Part shown: one piece after another, positions 10,011-55,806 of the stretch
How positions within the stretch are numbered: the stretch's first letter is position 1
Layout: every line of letters starts with the position of its first letter
Source: Opitutaceae bacterium
GTDB lineage: Bacteria > Verrucomicrobiota > Verrucomicrobiia > Opitutales > Opitutaceae
Reading direction: 5' to 3'
Assembly: GCA_016795565.1 (NCBI GenBank)
Contig: JAEUGW010000054.1
Span: forward strand, 62,001-126,000
DNA: 64,000 nucleotides
Translations under genes and position numbers: made by a program
The notes under the pieces: model-generated
What the model saw: only the letters and a program-made list of their open reading frames with translations
The model's database searches: none
What the model was told of the DNA's origin: nothing

Positions 10011-11078
10011 TCAGGCCGTCCGCTGGCGGCGGGCGGCGGCGGCCTGCGCCAGCGTTTCCAGCACCGGCACGGTCTCGTCGAAGCTGAGGCAGGCGTCGGT
10101 GATGCTTTGACCGGGCGTCAGCGGGCGGCCGGGCTCGTGCTTCTGCGCGCCGCCGACGAGATGGCTCTCCAGCATGACGCCGATGATCGCGCGCTCGCCG
10201 CCGGCGACCTGCGCGGCGAGATCGGCGGCGACCTGGGGCTGGTGGTCGTGCTGCTTGCCGCTGTTGCCGTGACTGCAGTCAACCAGCACGGCCGGCAGCG
10301 CGGCGGATTTTTTGAGGAGACTGACGGCCTGCGTGATGTGCTTGGCGTCGTAGTTCGGCCCGGTGCGGCTGCCGCCGCGGAGCACGAGGTGGCACTCGGG
10401 GTTGCCCGTGGTGCCAAGCACGGCGGGGGCGCCCTCGCGGGTGAGCGAGGGGAAGCAGTGCGGGTGCCGCGCGGAGACGATGGCGTCCACCGCCACCTGC
10501 AGGTCGCCGTCGGTGCGGTTCTTGAAACCGACGGGCATCGAGAGGCCGGAGGCGAGCTCGCGGTGGATCTGGCTCTCGGCGGTGCGCGCGCCGATGGCGG
10601 CCCACGAGACGAGGTCGGCGTAATACTGGCCGAGCGTGGTGTCGAGGAACTCGGTGCCGATGGGCAGGCCGGCGGCGTTGATATCGAGCAGCAGCCGGCG
10701 GGCGAGGCGCAGGCCGGTGTTGACCTGGAAGCTGCCGTCGAGGCGCGGGTCGTTGATCAGGCCCTTCCAGCCGATGGTCGTGCGGGGCTTTTCGAAATAG
10801 ACGCGCATCACGACCAGCAGGTCGCGGGCGAGGCGGTCGGCCACGGGCTTCAGTTTCTTCGCGTAGTCGAGTGCCGCCGCCGGATCGTGGATGGAGCAGG
10901 GCCCGACGATCGCCAGCAGCCGGTCGTCGCGGCCGAACAGGATGTCGCCCACCGCCCGGCGGCCCGCCTGGACCAGCGTGGCGCCGGCCTCGAGCAGGGG
11001 CAGGTCCTCCTCCAGGATGGCGGGGGAGAGCAGCGGGCGCGCGGTGCTGATGCGGAGGTCGGAGGTGGGCAGGCGCAT
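10011..11078 (-). CDS. aroG: 3-deoxy-7-phosphoheptulonate synthase, type I-alpha
   Basis: The enzyme condenses phosphoenolpyruvate and erythrose 4-phosphate in the first shikimate step. The class I TIM barrel is clear: VGPCSIHDP near residue 61, MRVYFEKPRTTIGWKGLINDP, GTEFLD, WAAIGARTAESQIHRE, VGFKNRTDG, LRGG and VDCSHGNSGK. At 355 residues it matches the AroF/G/H type of E. coli, with the regulatory site inside the barrel. The ATG at 11078 is preferred over a TTG at 11099. A second, different DAHP synthase lies at 15203-16255, so two isoenzymes with different control are expected. Confidence 0.95.
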   Translation of the reverse strand: MRLPTSDLRISTARPLLSPAILEEDLPLLEAGATLVQAGRRAVGDILFGRDDRLLAIVGPCSIHDPAAALDYAKKLKPVADRLARDLLVVMRVYFEKPRTTIGWKGLINDPRLDGSFQVNTGLRLARRLLLDINAAGLPIGTEFLDTTLGQYYADLVSWAAIGARTAESQIHRELASGLSMPVGFKNRTDGDLQVAVDAIVSARHPHCFPSLTREGAPAVLGTTGNPECHLVLRGGSRTGPNYDAKHITQAVSLLKKSAALPAVLVDCSHGNSGKQHDHQPQVAADLAAQVAGGERAIIGVMLESHLVGGAQKHEPGRPLTPGQSITDACLSFDETVPVLETLAQAAAARRQRTA

Positions 11079-11165
11079 GGGCGGTGGTTCAGTGAACAAA
11101 CCCCCGCCCCAAATGCACGGAGATTTTCATCGCGGCGGCCACGGGTGGGGCGATAAAGCTGCGGG

Positions 11166-13762: not shown

Positions 13763-13857
13763 GAGGTGCTGGGGCGCAGCAAGGCGCGGTGGCCGCCGGG
13801 CGTCAACCGTGCTTGCACGCACTTGCCTCGCGCGGCCGGTCGGGGCATACGGAGGCG

Positions 13858-14994
13858 ATGAATCTCCCCATTTGGGAAGACCGCGACTGGCGGCCGTTGC
13901 CGCGGCTCGAGGGACCCGCGCGGGCCGATGTGTGCGTCATCGGGCTGGGCGGCTCCGGCCTGGCGGCGATGGAGGAACTCGGCGCGCTGGGCGTCAGCGC
14001 CGTCGGCCTCGAGGCCGGCGCGGTGGGGGCCGGGGCGGCGGGGCGCAACGGCGGCTTCGTGCTCGCCGGGCTGGCCAGGTTTTTCAACGAGACGGTCGTG
14101 CAGTTCGGCGAGGCGGCGGCCAGCGCGCTCTACCGGCTGACCACCCGGGAAATCCAGCGGCAGGCGGCGGAGATGCCGGAGGTCATCCGGCTTACCGGCT
14201 CCCTGCGGCTGGCGGCCGATGCCGCCGAGCGCGCGGACTGCCAGAAGCATCTCGCGGCGCTGCGCTATTGCGGCTTCGCCGCCGAGCCCTACGCGGGGCC
14301 GGAGGGGGACGGCATCCTGCTGCCGGCGGACGGCGTCATGCAGCCCCTGCACCGGGTGCGGGCCCTCGCGCGGAAATTGCGGCAACGCGACGCCCTGCTC
14401 TACGAAAACTCACCCGTGCGGAAGATCGTGCCCGGCTCGGTCGTGACCGACCGGGGCACCGTTTTCTGCGACACGGTGATCGTGGCGGTGGACGGGCGGC
14501 TGGAAGAAATCCTGCCCGAGCTCCGCCCGCGCGTCCGCACCGCGCGGCTGCAGATGCTGGCCACGGCGCCCGCGCCGGAGGTGAGTTTCCCGCGCCCGGT
14601 TTACTGGCGGCACGGCTACGAATACTGGCAGCAACTGCCCGACCAAAGCGTCGCGCTCGGCGGCTTCCGCGACCATGGCGGCGACGCGGAGTGGACGCAT
14701 GCGGCCGAGCCGACGGAGAAAATCCAGGCCCTGCTCGAGCGCTTCCTGCGGGAAAACCTCAAGGTGCGCGCCCCGGTGACGCATCGTTGGGCGGCTTCCG
14801 TGGCCTACACGGCCGACGGGCTGCCGGTGCTGGAGCAGGTGCGCGACAAGACCTGGGCCGTCGGCGCCTACAGCGGCACGGGGAACATCGTCGGCGCGCT
14901 CAGTGCGCGGGCGGCGGCCCGGCTGGCCTGCGGGCAAACGGCGGAATGGGCGGAATGCCTGGCGGCCGCGCGGGCGCACGCCGCCAAGTCATAA
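13858..14994 (+). CDS. FAD-dependent amino acid/amine oxidase (DAO family)
   Basis: This 378-residue protein has an FAD Rossmann motif VIGLGGSGLAAMEELG (residues 25-40), then the GLEAGAVGAGAAGRNGGFV segment typical of the DadA/PuuB/glycine oxidase group. The C-terminus has GLPVLEQV and the FAD-closing GAYSGTGNIVGALSA. These enzymes oxidise an amine or amino acid carbon-nitrogen bond. An AGGAGG-like Shine-Dalgarno sequence (ggaggcg) ends just before the ATG at 13858 and fixes the start. The substrate is not determined. Confidence 0.85.
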   Translation: MNLPIWEDRDWRPLPRLEGPARADVCVIGLGGSGLAAMEELGALGVSAVGLEAGAVGAGAAGRNGGFVLAGLARFFNETVVQFGEAAASALYRLTTREIQRQAAEMPEVIRLTGSLRLAADAAERADCQKHLAALRYCGFAAEPYAGPEGDGILLPADGVMQPLHRVRALARKLRQRDALLYENSPVRKIVPGSVVTDRGTVFCDTVIVAVDGRLEEILPELRPRVRTARLQMLATAPAPEVSFPRPVYWRHGYEYWQQLPDQSVALGGFRDHGGDAEWTHAAEPTEKIQALLERFLRENLKVRAPVTHRWAASVAYTADGLPVLEQVRDKTWAVGAYSGTGNIVGALSARAAARLACGQTAEWAECLAAARAHAAKS

Positions 14995-15006: not shown

Positions 15007-15035
15007 TTGACACCCGCCCGCCCGCCGGTCACCTC
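15007..15035 (+). promoter_or_regulatory. Candidate promoter of the phe leader-aroF-pheA operon
   Basis: A perfect TTGACA lies at 15007-15012. The -10 region 17 bases further (about 15030-15035) is GC-rich and poor (CACCTC). Transcription from this promoter would begin near 15042-15044, that is at or next to the GTG of the leader peptide, so the leader could be translated without an upstream Shine-Dalgarno site. This is inferred from position only. Confidence 0.45.
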
Positions 15036-15043
15036 TGACGGCC

Positions 15044-15133
15044 GTGAATCGTTTTGCCGCCAGCTTCAGCTTTACCTTTGCGGGCTACTTTAGCCCGCAG
15101 ACCGCCGGCGGCCTGTCCCAGCGCAAACCCTGA
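15044..15133 (+). CDS. pheL: Phenylalanine-rich leader peptide of aroF-pheA
   Basis: A 29-codon reading frame from GTG to TGA encodes a peptide with Phe at positions 4, 8, 10, 12 and 16 and Tyr at 15 (core SFSFTFAGYF). Five Phe in 13 codons directly upstream of a DAHP synthase-prephenate dehydratase operon is the signature of a ribosome-stalling leader, as in enterobacterial pheL. No Shine-Dalgarno sequence is seen, so leaderless initiation is possible. The GTG start is the least certain point; the Phe run is unaffected by it. Confidence 0.8.
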   Translation: MNRFAASFSFTFAGYFSPQTAGGLSQRKP

Positions 15134-15186
15134 TTCACCCCAGAACCAATTTGCCAAGGAGCCGCCCCATCGGGCGGCTTTTTTAT
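15056..15186 (+). promoter_or_regulatory. Transcription attenuator with competing hairpins
   Basis: Four short segments can pair in alternatives. Strand 1 GCCGCC (15056-15061, among the Phe codons) pairs with strand 2 GGCGGC (15107-15112). Strand 2 also pairs with strand 3 GCCGCC (15161-15166). Strand 3 (GCCGCCC, 15161-15167) pairs with strand 4 (GGGCGGC, 15172-15178), followed by TTTTTTATTT, which is a rho-independent terminator. A further 8-base hairpin lies at 15080-15098. A ribosome stalled at Phe codons covers strand 1, freeing strand 2 to block the terminator. When Phe is plentiful the terminator forms 17 bases before aroF. Confidence 0.8.
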
Positions 15187-15202: not shown

Positions 15203-16255
15203 ATGATCCTGCCCAAGAACAATCGTCTCTCAGCCGAGGAAGTCGCCCAACTGACCGCGATCGTCGCCGAGTTCGGCTGCCGCATCCAGCCGATCGTCGG
15301 CGATGTCCGCAGCATCTACGCCATCGTGGGCGACGAGCGCCACGAGCTGATGATCAGCCGGCTGGAGGGCCTGCCGTTCGTGGACCGCGTGGACACCATC
15401 CAGTCACCGCACAAGCTGATGGACATCAAGTCCGACCTCGCCCGGCACCGGGTGAAAATCGGCGGCGTGACCCTCGGTGACGAGTTGCTGGTCATGGCCG
15501 GCCACTGCACCATCGACCCGAAGAACCCCAACCTCTTCTACGAGACCGCGCAGGCGGTGAAGGAGGCCGGGGCCCACGCGCTCCGCGGCGGCGTGTGGAA
15601 GCCGCGCACCAATCCCTACGCCTTTCAGGGCGACCACAAGTCGCTCGATATCCTGATGGAGGGCTCGCGCCGCACCGGCCTGCCGGTGGACACCGAGGTG
15701 ATGGACGAGGAGCAACTCCGCCTCGCGCTCGCCGCCGGCGTGCAAATCCTCCAGATCGGCGCGCGCAACGCCCTCAACTACTCCTTGCTGCGCCAGGTCG
15801 GCGCCGCCATCGCCGGCAAGCCCGCCGCCGTGCTGCTCAAGCGCGGCATGCACACCGGCACGCTCAACGAGTTCATCTCCGCCGCCGAATACATCGTCAA
15901 CTTCGGCAACCCCAACGTCATCCTCTGCCCGCGCGGCACCCAGCCCGGCCTCGACGGCTATCGCAACCAGCCCGACGAATCCATCACCCCGCTGCTCAAG
16001 GAGCGCACCTGGGCTCCCGTCGTCGTCGATCCCTCCCACTCCGTCGGCAAGGCCGCCTACGTGCCGGCCTGCGCGCTCGCCGCCGTGGCCTACGGGGCCG
16101 ACGGCCTGTGCATCGAGGCACACGTCAGCCCCGCGCGCGGCCTGGGCGACGACCCCAAGCAGGCGGTCACCCCGGCGGTGCTTGCGGAGTTGATTCGGGA
16201 CGCCAAGGCCCTCCATGCTCTGATCCGCACCACCAGCCAGCCCGCCGCCTCATGA
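15203..16255 (+). CDS. aroF: 3-deoxy-7-phosphoheptulonate synthase, type I-beta
   Basis: This 350-residue enzyme catalyses the first shikimate step. Residues 1-75 form a ferredoxin-like regulatory domain (MILPKNNRLS to VDRVDTIQS), as in Thermotoga DAHP synthase, where it binds aromatic amino acids. The barrel has VMAGHCTIDP (Cys in place of the usual PCS/PCA), RGGVWKPRTNPYAFQG, TEVMD, QIGARNALNY, LLKRGM, LCPRG and VVDPSHSVGK. The usual phrase in this subfamily is GPCSVE, so GHCTID is a mild variant. It is followed by pheA with an ATGA overlap and preceded by the Phe leader and attenuator. Confidence 0.95.
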   Translation: MILPKNNRLSAEEVAQLTAIVAEFGCRIQPIVGDVRSIYAIVGDERHELMISRLEGLPFVDRVDTIQSPHKLMDIKSDLARHRVKIGGVTLGDELLVMAGHCTIDPKNPNLFYETAQAVKEAGAHALRGGVWKPRTNPYAFQGDHKSLDILMEGSRRTGLPVDTEVMDEEQLRLALAAGVQILQIGARNALNYSLLRQVGAAIAGKPAAVLLKRGMHTGTLNEFISAAEYIVNFGNPNVILCPRGTQPGLDGYRNQPDESITPLLKERTWAPVVVDPSHSVGKAAYVPACALAAVAYGADGLCIEAHVSPARGLGDDPKQAVTPAVLAELIRDAKALHALIRTTSQPAAS

Positions 16256-17328
16256 AGAAGCAACTCGCCAGGGTCCGGAACCAGATCGACGCGCTCGACC
16301 GCGAGATTGTCGAGCGGCTCAACACCCGCTTGAAGTGCGCCCAGCAGATCGGTGAGATCAAGCGCGGCGCGAAGACCCGCATCTACGTGGCCGAGCGCGA
16401 GGCCGATGTGCTGCGCCGCGTGTCCGCCGCGAACCGCGGCCCGCTCAAGCCCGCCGCCCTCCAGGCCATCTACCGCGAGATCATGTCGGCGGCGCTGGCC
16501 CTGGAGAAACCCCTCTGCGTGGCCTACCTCGGGCCCGAGGCCACCAACACCCACGCCGCCGCCCTCCGCAAGTTCGGCTCGAGCGTGGACTACCGGCCGA
16601 TGGCGACCATCGCCGATATCTTCACCGCCGTCGAGAAGGGCGAGGCCGATTATGGCGTCGTGCCGGTCGAGAACTCCACCGAGGGCGCCGTGCGCGATTC
16701 CCTCGACCTGTTTGTCGAGACGCCGCTCAAGATCGTCGCGGAACTCCACCAGGAGATTGAGCACACGCTGCTCTCCCGCAGCCCGCTGGCGAAGATCAAG
16801 AAGGTCTATTCCAAGGACCAGGCCCTGGCCCAGTGCCGCCGCTGGCTGCAGCGCAACCTGCCGCACGCCCGGCTGGTGGATGTGGACAGCACCGCGCTCG
16901 GCGTGCAGGTCGCCGCCCGGGAGAAGGGTGCCGCCGCCATCGCGCCCCGCCTCGCCGGCGAGCGCTACGGCGTGCCGGTGGCCGCCACGCACATCCAGGA
17001 TCTCAAGAACAACACCTCGCGCTTCGTCTTCCTCGGCCGCGAGGCCTCGGGCTCGGCCGGCAGCGGCCACGACAAGACGAGCCTCCTCGTCTCGCTCCAC
17101 CACGAGCCCGGCGCGCTGCTGCACGCGTTGCAGCCGTTCAACCGCCGCAAGCTGAACCTCACGCGCATCGAGTCGCGCCCGAGCCGGCTGAAGCCGTGGG
17201 ACTACATCTTCTTCCTCGACGTCAAGGGGCACTACGAGGACCCGCAGATGCAGGCCGCGCTCAAGGAGCTCAGCCGGAAATGCCCGCTCGTGAAGTGGCT
17301 CGGCAGCTATCCGGTGGCAAAGAAGTGA
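16252..17328 (+). CDS. pheA: Bifunctional chorismate mutase/prephenate dehydratase (P-protein)
   Basis: Domains in order: AroQ-type chorismate mutase (residues 1-88, with RNQIDALDREIVERLNTR and the IYVAEREADVLRR helix), prephenate dehydratase (from YLGPEATNTHAAA to about 270, with VPVENSTEGAV and NNTSRFVFLG), and a C-terminal ACT domain with PGALLHAL and ESRPSR, the phenylalanine-binding site for feedback inhibition. The enzyme turns chorismate to prephenate and then phenylpyruvate, the Phe precursor. It shares the attenuator-controlled transcript with the DAHP synthase, so Phe controls both expression and activity. Confidence 0.96.
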   Translation: MKKQLARVRNQIDALDREIVERLNTRLKCAQQIGEIKRGAKTRIYVAEREADVLRRVSAANRGPLKPAALQAIYREIMSAALALEKPLCVAYLGPEATNTHAAALRKFGSSVDYRPMATIADIFTAVEKGEADYGVVPVENSTEGAVRDSLDLFVETPLKIVAELHQEIEHTLLSRSPLAKIKKVYSKDQALAQCRRWLQRNLPHARLVDVDSTALGVQVAAREKGAAAIAPRLAGERYGVPVAATHIQDLKNNTSRFVFLGREASGSAGSGHDKTSLLVSLHHEPGALLHALQPFNRRKLNLTRIESRPSRLKPWDYIFFLDVKGHYEDPQMQAALKELSRKCPLVKWLGSYPVAKK

Positions 17329-17341
17329 CCATCGAATGATT

Positions 17342-17434
17342 GTCATCCTGCGCGCAGCGGAGGATCCAGTGGGAAGTTATGCGTGGCATCGGGTGCGCAT
17401 GTTCTGATGGATTCTTCGCTGCGCTCAGAATGAC
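17342..17434. repeat. Dispersed-type inverted repeat, 93 bases
   Basis: Two 26-base arms begin GTCATCCTGCGCGCAGCGG (17342 onward) and end GCTGCGCTCAGAATGAC (to 17434), with few mismatches, around a 41-base loop. It sits between pheA and glgA, has no coding content and looks like a REP/BIME-type element. It may fold in the pheA transcript as a 3' structure. Confidence 0.7.
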
Positions 17435-17487
17435 GGGGCTGGTAATTTAGACTCGTCCGCCCCGGAGGCTTCGGGTTTCCTGCCCAC

Positions 17488-45886: not shown

Positions 45887-46858
45887 TCAGAACCACTTTT
45901 TCTTCTTCAGGTAGACCGCCATCATCACTGTCGTAAGCAGGGTGATGCCCAGGGCGTAATTGTAGCCGTGGCGCGACTGGAGCTCGTGCATGAACTCGAA
46001 GTTCATGCCATACCAGGTGCCGATGACCATCACGGGCAGGGTGATGGCAGTGAGGGCGGTGAGGAACTTGATGCCCTCGTTGGCCTCGCCGGCGGCCTTG
46101 TTGAGATAGATGTCGAAGGCCATCATCAGCCGCTCGTGGTAGCCGGTGACCGCCTCCTCGTAGCGGACGAGGTTGTCGCGCAGATCGCGGAAATAGGGGA
46201 GGAGCTTGGGGCGGATCATCTTGCTGTCGCCGCGGGCGAGGCGCTCGATGACGTCGCGTTGCGGCCGCACGATCTGCCGGAGCTTGGTGAAGTCGCGGCG
46301 CACCTCGAGCAGCTCGCCGACGAACTGCTTGTCCGAATCCCGCGTGAGCACGGCGTCCTCGATCTCCTCCAGTTTGGTGTGTAGCTCGGCGACCATGGGG
46401 GCGTAGTTGTCCACGATCAGATCGAGCAGGGAGTGGGCGAGGCGGTCGGGGCCGCGCGGGCCGATGCCGACATTCTTGGCCAGGCGCTCGATCAGGGTGG
46501 TGACCGAGCGCAGGGGGGTGCGGTGGAAGGTGACGAGGTATTCCTTGCCAAGGAAGAGATCGAGCTCGGTGGTGGCGAACTTGTCCGCCTGGGAAAAATC
46601 CACCGCGTGGGTGACCATGAACAGATAGTCCTCGTAGTCCTCGACCTTCGGCAGCGGGCTGGGCGTCATGCAGTCCTCGATGGCGAGGGGGTGGAACTGG
46701 AAGAGGCCCTCGAGGACGTGCTTGATCTCGTCGTCGGTGGGGTTGTCGAGGTCCACCCACACGATCAGTCCCTTGTCGCCGTGGACGAGACGCAGGGCCT
46801 CGAGCTCGAGATCCTGTCCCACGAGCTTGCCCTCGCTGAAGATGAAGGAATGGATCAT
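45887..46858 (-). CDS. corA: CorA family magnesium/cobalt transporter
   Basis: A 323-residue CorA: a cytoplasmic alpha/beta funnel (residues 1-260), then two C-terminal helices. TM1 ends in the selectivity motif IGTWYGMNFEFM, followed by LGITLLTTVMMAVYL and a basic tail KKKKWF. It forms a homopentameric Mg2+ channel in the inner membrane. The GT-C gene follows after 7 bases, probably on the same transcript. Confidence 0.95.
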   Translation of the reverse strand: MIHSFIFSEGKLVGQDLELEALRLVHGDKGLIVWVDLDNPTDDEIKHVLEGLFQFHPLAIEDCMTPSPLPKVEDYEDYLFMVTHAVDFSQADKFATTELDLFLGKEYLVTFHRTPLRSVTTLIERLAKNVGIGPRGPDRLAHSLLDLIVDNYAPMVAELHTKLEEIEDAVLTRDSDKQFVGELLEVRRDFTKLRQIVRPQRDVIERLARGDSKMIRPKLLPYFRDLRDNLVRYEEAVTGYHERLMMAFDIYLNKAAGEANEGIKFLTALTAITLPVMVIGTWYGMNFEFMHELQSRHGYNYALGITLLTTVMMAVYLKKKKWF

Positions 46859-46942
46859 GCGTTTGCGGCGATGCTGCGCGGCCGCGCGACAGTGGCAAGC
46901 CCCGCGTGCAGGTGGAACCGGCGCTCCGCGTCGGTTGTTTTA

Positions 46943-55398: not shown

Positions 55399-55806
55399 TT
55401 TCGGGGCCAGATCTTCGCTCCGCGTTCTTTGAACCAGGAGAGGAAAGTCCGGACACCACAGGGCGGGATTCCCCACGAAAGCGGGGGCGGGTCGCTTCAA
55501 GGCGGCCTGACGGAAAGTGTCACAGAGAACAGACCGCCCCGCGGGCAACCGCGAGGCAAGGGTGAAAAGGTGGGGTAAGAGCCCACCGCGCCGAAGGCAA
55601 CGACGGCGGCACGAAAAACCCAATCCGGTGCAAGACTAAATAGGGGACTCGGCGGCCCGTCGGACAGTCCCGGGTTAGTCGCACCCCAGGCGTCGGCGCA
55701 AGCCGGCAGTCCGGGGAGACCCGCCTTCGGGCGGGCCTAGAGAAATGAAGATCACGGTGCCGTTCGCGGCACCCGACAGAATCCGGCTTACCGGCTTCGA
55801 AACTAG
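55395..55806 (+). ncRNA. rnpB: RNase P RNA, bacterial class A
   Basis: Conserved core blocks are seen: GAGGAAAGTCCGGAC (55439-55453), AGGGTGAAA, the GAACAGA-type block, GAGAAATGAAGAT, and the 3' ACAGAATCCGGCTTA near 55778. The P1 stem pairs CTAGTTTCG (55395-55403) with CGAAACTAG (55798-55806). It is the ribozyme that trims tRNA 5' ends. P1 reaches into the stop codon of the upstream gene. Confidence 0.93.

Follow-up and report, generated by a model that had tools for sequence, protein, structure and literature searches.

Leader-peptide attenuation is known chiefly from Proteobacteria and Actinobacteria, the only phyla that a 2010 survey listed for leader peptides before it added Firmicutes, with a histidine case (PMC2965389). 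Three described systems come closest to the locus reported here, a small ORF ahead of aroF-pheA in a member of the Opitutaceae. The pheL-pheA (Rfam RF01859, Phe_leader) and pheST attenuators of E. coli share with it a Phe-rich leader peptide, alternative hairpins and an intrinsic terminator, and E. coli pheA, like its Opitutaceae counterpart, encodes a chorismate mutase-prephenate dehydratase. In C. glutamicum, as here, an aromatic leader peptide (AroR, with Phe-Tyr-Phe) precedes a DAHP synthase gene, aroF (PMC11802643, PMC4046766), and transcription of that operon is reported to rise under Phe limitation (Neshat 2014, as cited in PMC11802643). In Acholeplasma, an aromatic uORF ahead of aroF has been proposed; as in our locus, the uORFC-13-1 motif combines a short ORF carrying one or more Phe codons with a terminator upstream of aroF (PMC8632094). 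Sequence comparison indicates that the Opitutaceae element is very probably a transcription attenuator of the ribosome-mediated kind, through which tRNA-Phe charging adjusts expression of aroF-pheA.

The window (the whole 64-kb stretch of DNA that we analysed) contains the features listed in Table 1. The product of the first structural gene matches the Pfam families DAHP_synth_1 and DAHP_snth_FXD above their cut-offs, and its best NCBIfam match, PRK08673, lies below its cut-off. With a chorismate mutase-prephenate dehydratase encoded by the second gene, the operon makes the amino acid that the leader would sense. A second DAHP synthase gene, of type I-alpha (aroFGH family), lies on the minus strand (10011-11099), 4 kb away from aroF, and an inverted-repeat-like stretch occupies positions 17340-17440, 3' of pheA.

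Table 1. Features of the aroF-pheA leader and operon (positions in the window)
Feature	Position	Strand	Remarks
Predicted -35 element, TTGACA	15007..15012	+	perfect in 44 of 44 homologous leaders
Putative -10 region, CACCTCT	15030..15036	+	poor match to TATAAT; tentative assignment
Phe-rich leader peptide ORF	15044..15133	+	29 aa, GTG start, TGA stop
Region 1, GCCGCC	15056..15061	+	can pair with region 2; missing in some relatives
Hairpin P1 inside the ORF	15077..15101	+	conserved; loop at last Tyr-Phe codons
Region 2, GGCGGC	15107..15112	+	antiterminator 5' arm; first base 15 nt past last Phe codon
GCAAA, 5' arm of second antiterminator stem	15123..15127	+	
TTTGC, 3' arm of second antiterminator stem	15150..15154	+	
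Region 3, GGAGCCGCCCC	15158..15168	+	common to antiterminator and terminator
Region 4, GGGCGGCT, with T run (15179-15184)	15172..15184	+	intrinsic terminator
aroF, type I-beta DAHP synthase with ferredoxin-like regulatory domain	15203..16255	+	ATG at 15203
pheA, chorismate mutase-prephenate dehydratase with ACT domain	16255..17329	+	ATG at 16255

The leader ORF encodes the peptide MNRFAASFSFTFAGYFSPQTAGGLSQRKP, with Phe at residues 4, 8, 10, 12 and 16 and a single Tyr. A first-pass annotation of this DNA had called a 29-codon frame with five Phe codons in 13 positions, and that description is exact. The window has no second small ORF, on the plus or the minus strand, that starts with ATG or GTG and carries at least five Phe in 13 codons; about 0.01 such ORFs per 64 kb would be expected in first-order Markov sequence, where none was found with a terminator within 110 nt.

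AroF relatives were gathered from genomes of the family and from named genomes, and the named relatives of the locus belong to Lacunisphaera, Opitutus and other Opitutaceae. A leader-peptide profile search identified 51 leaders in Opitutaceae, 44 of them distinct, all of which precede aroF. With a covariance model, strong matches (65 bits or more) were found in 51 of 252 family genomes, representing 10 genera, and a short-leader form occurs in an eleventh genus (for example MSFARAFFAYFWFGYRLAD at L112). A recognisable leader is absent from many Opitutaceae genomes that have aroF. Most of the weak model matches elsewhere in the phylum (E-values of 1e-6 to 0.05) correspond to bare terminators or to unrelated sequence, and we left these weak matches out of the counts; two other contigs of the window's own genome (C31 and C4) bear matches that no biosynthetic gene follows and that resemble ordinary terminators. 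In SAR324, aromatic-rich small ORFs, one with Trp-Trp, lie upstream of aroF at four loci (L102, L103, L105 and L108; for example WFYYYFFAFRRLPG), with alternative CCTGCCC/GGGCAGG pairings and without a T run.

These leaders keep their aromatic codons. Phe accounts for 226 of 1202 leader codons (19%) versus 215 of 11454 aroF codons (1.9%), the leader being a short ORF rich in codons for the amino acid made by the operon. TTT makes up 67% of Phe codons in leaders versus 23% in aroF; the minor Phe codon of the gene is the major one of its leader. In the alignment, whose consensus is roughly MNRFAAYYFSFGFWGYFTPKxxGGCREN, Phe occupies column 41 in 38 of 39 leaders, and columns 56 and 59 hold Tyr or Phe in all 39. 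Thus, the comparison across Opitutaceae that the first-pass annotation had proposed finds the aromatic codons conserved. Tyr codons are also enriched (93 of 1202), and YYF runs occur in some relatives, so we considered that the attenuator might sense Tyr besides Phe, or aromatic amino acids generally, particularly as AroF feeds the synthesis of all of them. We regard this as unlikely, however: Phe is far commoner, the window leader has its lone Tyr, pheA serves only Phe, and Tyr availability has no effect at C. glutamicum aroR despite its Phe-Tyr-Phe (PMC11802643).

Several observations bear on the coding capacity of the leader. Indels within the ORFs are multiples of three; the lone one-base indel in aligned ORF columns, in L116 and L134, falls past their earlier stop codon. 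Among close pairs, 43% of single-base codon differences are synonymous, versus 23% for random changes, an excess that is supporting rather than decisive because RNA structure constrains the same bases. Codon-position entropy of the leaders was uninformative. From this coding signature, we infer that the leader ORF is translated.

The predicted fold of the 155-nt leader is 3.6 SD lower in energy than those of dinucleotide shuffles, with 0 of 200 shuffles as low. The first-pass annotation had placed GCCGCC at 15056, GGCGGC at 15107, GCCGCC (in region 3) at 15161 and GGGCGGC (the beginning of region 4) at 15172, followed by a T run. All are exactly as given, and its arms and terminator are retained in our model, but it lacked hairpin P1, the GCAAA:TTTGC stem and the upstream TTGACA. 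An intrinsic terminator of 9-11 pairs thus lies between the leader ORF and aroF. In the alignment of relatives, 92.5% of its cells are paired, and two-sided changes occur in four pairs at its base (0/500 shuffles). P1 and the 1:2 pairing together have 36 two-sided cells (0/500 shuffles). P1 is conserved in most relatives, in a register that shifts between clades, and exceeds synonymously recoded versions in stability (mean z -1.4). The second antiterminator stem is GCAAA:TTTGC in the window and GCGAAA:TTTCGC in other clades; its arms pair at -7.8 kcal/mol with their own partner versus -5.6 +/- 0.28 with permuted partners (0/5000). Hence, of the pairings proposed earlier (1:2, 2:3 and 3:4), the last is backed by compensatory changes, as are P1 and the second antiterminator stem in the proposed test for covariation across Opitutaceae, whereas the 1:2 pairing (GCCGCC:GGCGGC), although present in most relatives, is lost in several; where region 1 is lost, the conserved protector is P1. 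The GGCGGC:GCCGCC arms are invariant, so covariation cannot probe the 2:3 core. Since the permutation and shuffle tests correct for relatedness only in part, the weight of this evidence is on different clades using different base pairs. RNAalifold recovered the terminator alone from the whole alignment, because the helices are mutually exclusive and the P1 register differs between clades. A consensus scanner called neither the predicted promoter nor the terminator.

The geometry of the leader is also consistent with attenuation. Mean energies are -21 kcal/mol for the antiterminator and -18 kcal/mol for the terminator; the two structures share region 3, and the antiterminator would be free to form when a ribosome stalls. 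In 38 of 42 leaders, region 2 begins 15 nt past the last aromatic codon. In ribosome footprints, this is approximately the reach of a stalled ribosome. The leader stop codon lies 0-21 nt past region 2; this puts it inside the antiterminator's 5' half, and a ribosome terminating there would disrupt that structure. Conservation of residues beyond Phe (GYFxP...GG), as in arrest peptides, raises the alternative of nascent-peptide arrest, or of a ligand-binding RNA, in place of codon-dependent stalling. However, the conservation of these residues is explained by their codons, which form the arms of P1 and region 2, and Phe/Tyr interchange and variable C-termini argue against recognition of the peptide; nor is there a T-box or riboswitch among the weak Rfam matches. 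We consider this alternative highly improbable. No curated T-box or aptamer model matched in the 64-kb window, where the sole Rfam match above threshold is a class A RNase P RNA (55399-55806, plus strand, 214 bits).

A TTGACA element precedes every one of the 44 distinct leaders, with its first base 36-38 nt (41 in one case) ahead of the start codon, and is likewise present in short-leader variants (L112, L115, L136 and L145). A CA is kept 23 nt past the first base of the -35 element in nearly all relatives. No Shine-Dalgarno sequence is visible between TTGACA and the start codon in the 44 leaders. With ordinary sigma-70 spacing from TTGACA, the transcript is predicted to begin with the leader's initiation codon, and the RNA on which the leader is translated is probably leaderless. 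The placement of TTGACA is the most distinctive feature, the start itself being a prediction from spacing with a poor -10 match. GTG is the start codon in 18 of 39 aligned leaders, and a leaderless GTG start may be inefficient.

The terminator lies about 170 nt past the stop codon of an upstream oxidoreductase gene (13789-14994), so it could merely end that gene, the Phe-rich ORF being accidental. We give this explanation almost no credence. Upstream sequence was sufficient at 31 loci: the module follows an FAD oxidoreductase gene at 13 of them and an RluA-type synthase gene or other sequence at 18, and leader and terminator stay with aroF throughout this variation; moreover, the ORF is conserved and coding, and is preceded by a perfect TTGACA. 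At eight loci (L003, L004, L005, L006, L032, L035, L037 and L041), an extra 100-350 nt, partly repeat-like, lies in the gap between terminator and aroF.

The attenuator proposed in the first-pass annotation is thus supported by both aromatic-codon conservation and compensatory changes, and we suggest that it works as follows. Transcription would start on the leader start codon or no more than a few bases from it, and a ribosome would load onto the leaderless, or nearly leaderless, RNA. When Phe-tRNA is scarce, the ribosome would stall at a Phe codon, mostly TTT; even at the last of these it would cover region 1 and P1, leaving region 2, 15 nt on, free. Region 2 could then base-pair with region 3, and GCAAA with TTTGC, forming the antiterminator before region 4 is transcribed, and RNA polymerase would continue into aroF-pheA. 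When Phe-tRNA is plentiful, the ribosome would reach the stop codon and disrupt the antiterminator, such that region 3 pairs with region 4 and transcription ends at the T run. In an untranslated leader, P1 and the 1:2 pairing would sequester region 2, making termination the default.

Three genera, among them that of the window, have secondary covariance-model matches (about 1e-10 to 1e-5) ahead of ilvD. The ilvD leader of the window's own genome (contig C43 of G000, about 46764-46922; L239) encodes MSNVALIVLITVAVALLVAEPNTHGRLVKATSS and is rich in Ile/Val/Leu codons. It has GGGCGGC inside the ORF, a GCCGCC...GGCGGC terminator, and TTGACA 42 nt ahead of the start codon; ilvB and leuA lie downstream of ilvD on the same strand. 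The layout is like that of the Phe element, but with Ile/Val/Leu codons and ilvD in place of Phe and aroF. Ile/Val/Leu-rich ilvD leaders occur in relatives too (L207, L223-L227, L229-L231, L234-L236 and L241). There is an even chance, in our estimation, that Opitutaceae use a modular leaderless attenuator, a single scaffold recoded for Phe at aroF-pheA and for Ile/Val/Leu at the ilvD operon. The scaffold would be GGGCGGC in the ORF plus the GCCGCC...GGCGGC terminator; the promoter would make the RNA begin with the leader's start codon, and the first ribosome would trail the polymerase without a ribosome-binding site. We found no Trp leader at trpE of the genus, which in most cases has a glmS-like gene as its immediate upstream neighbour, and so rejected trpE as a further attenuated gene. 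In another Verrucomicrobiota family, a Leu-rich small ORF, MIRSGLLRRLLLLLLLEG, lies ahead of a terminator (L209, 1501-1638), which suggests that there may be more such attenuators.

This well-supported attenuator family from Verrucomicrobiota, together with a second element serving a different pathway in the same genome, indicates that leader-peptide attenuation is more widespread, and the Opitutaceae covariance model offers a means of finding more attenuators. If leaderless, the Phe leader would be a good case for transcription-translation coupling that starts without a ribosome-binding site. We found no description of leader-peptide attenuation in Verrucomicrobiota or Opitutus in the open literature, although an earlier prediction may exist in a broad comparative survey (Lopatovskaya 2010). 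The novelty claimed in the first-pass annotation appears to hold for the lineage but is too strong for the gene, since DAHP synthase leaders are known in C. glutamicum and proposed in Acholeplasma. Unlike E. coli pheL, the Opitutaceae leader has aroF as the first gene of the operon, a hairpin within its coding region and no visible Shine-Dalgarno sequence, and it is not matched by RF01859 (20 bits versus a threshold of 55). C. glutamicum aroR, which we liken by description and not by sequence, is actinobacterial and has its three aromatic codons in a row. The Acholeplasma motif belongs to another phylum, has a ribosome-binding site, and encodes at least one Phe within its U run (PMC8632094). 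Thus, attenuation as a principle is already known, even ahead of DAHP synthase genes; what appears to be new is the lineage, together with the RNA family and the parallel element at ilvD.
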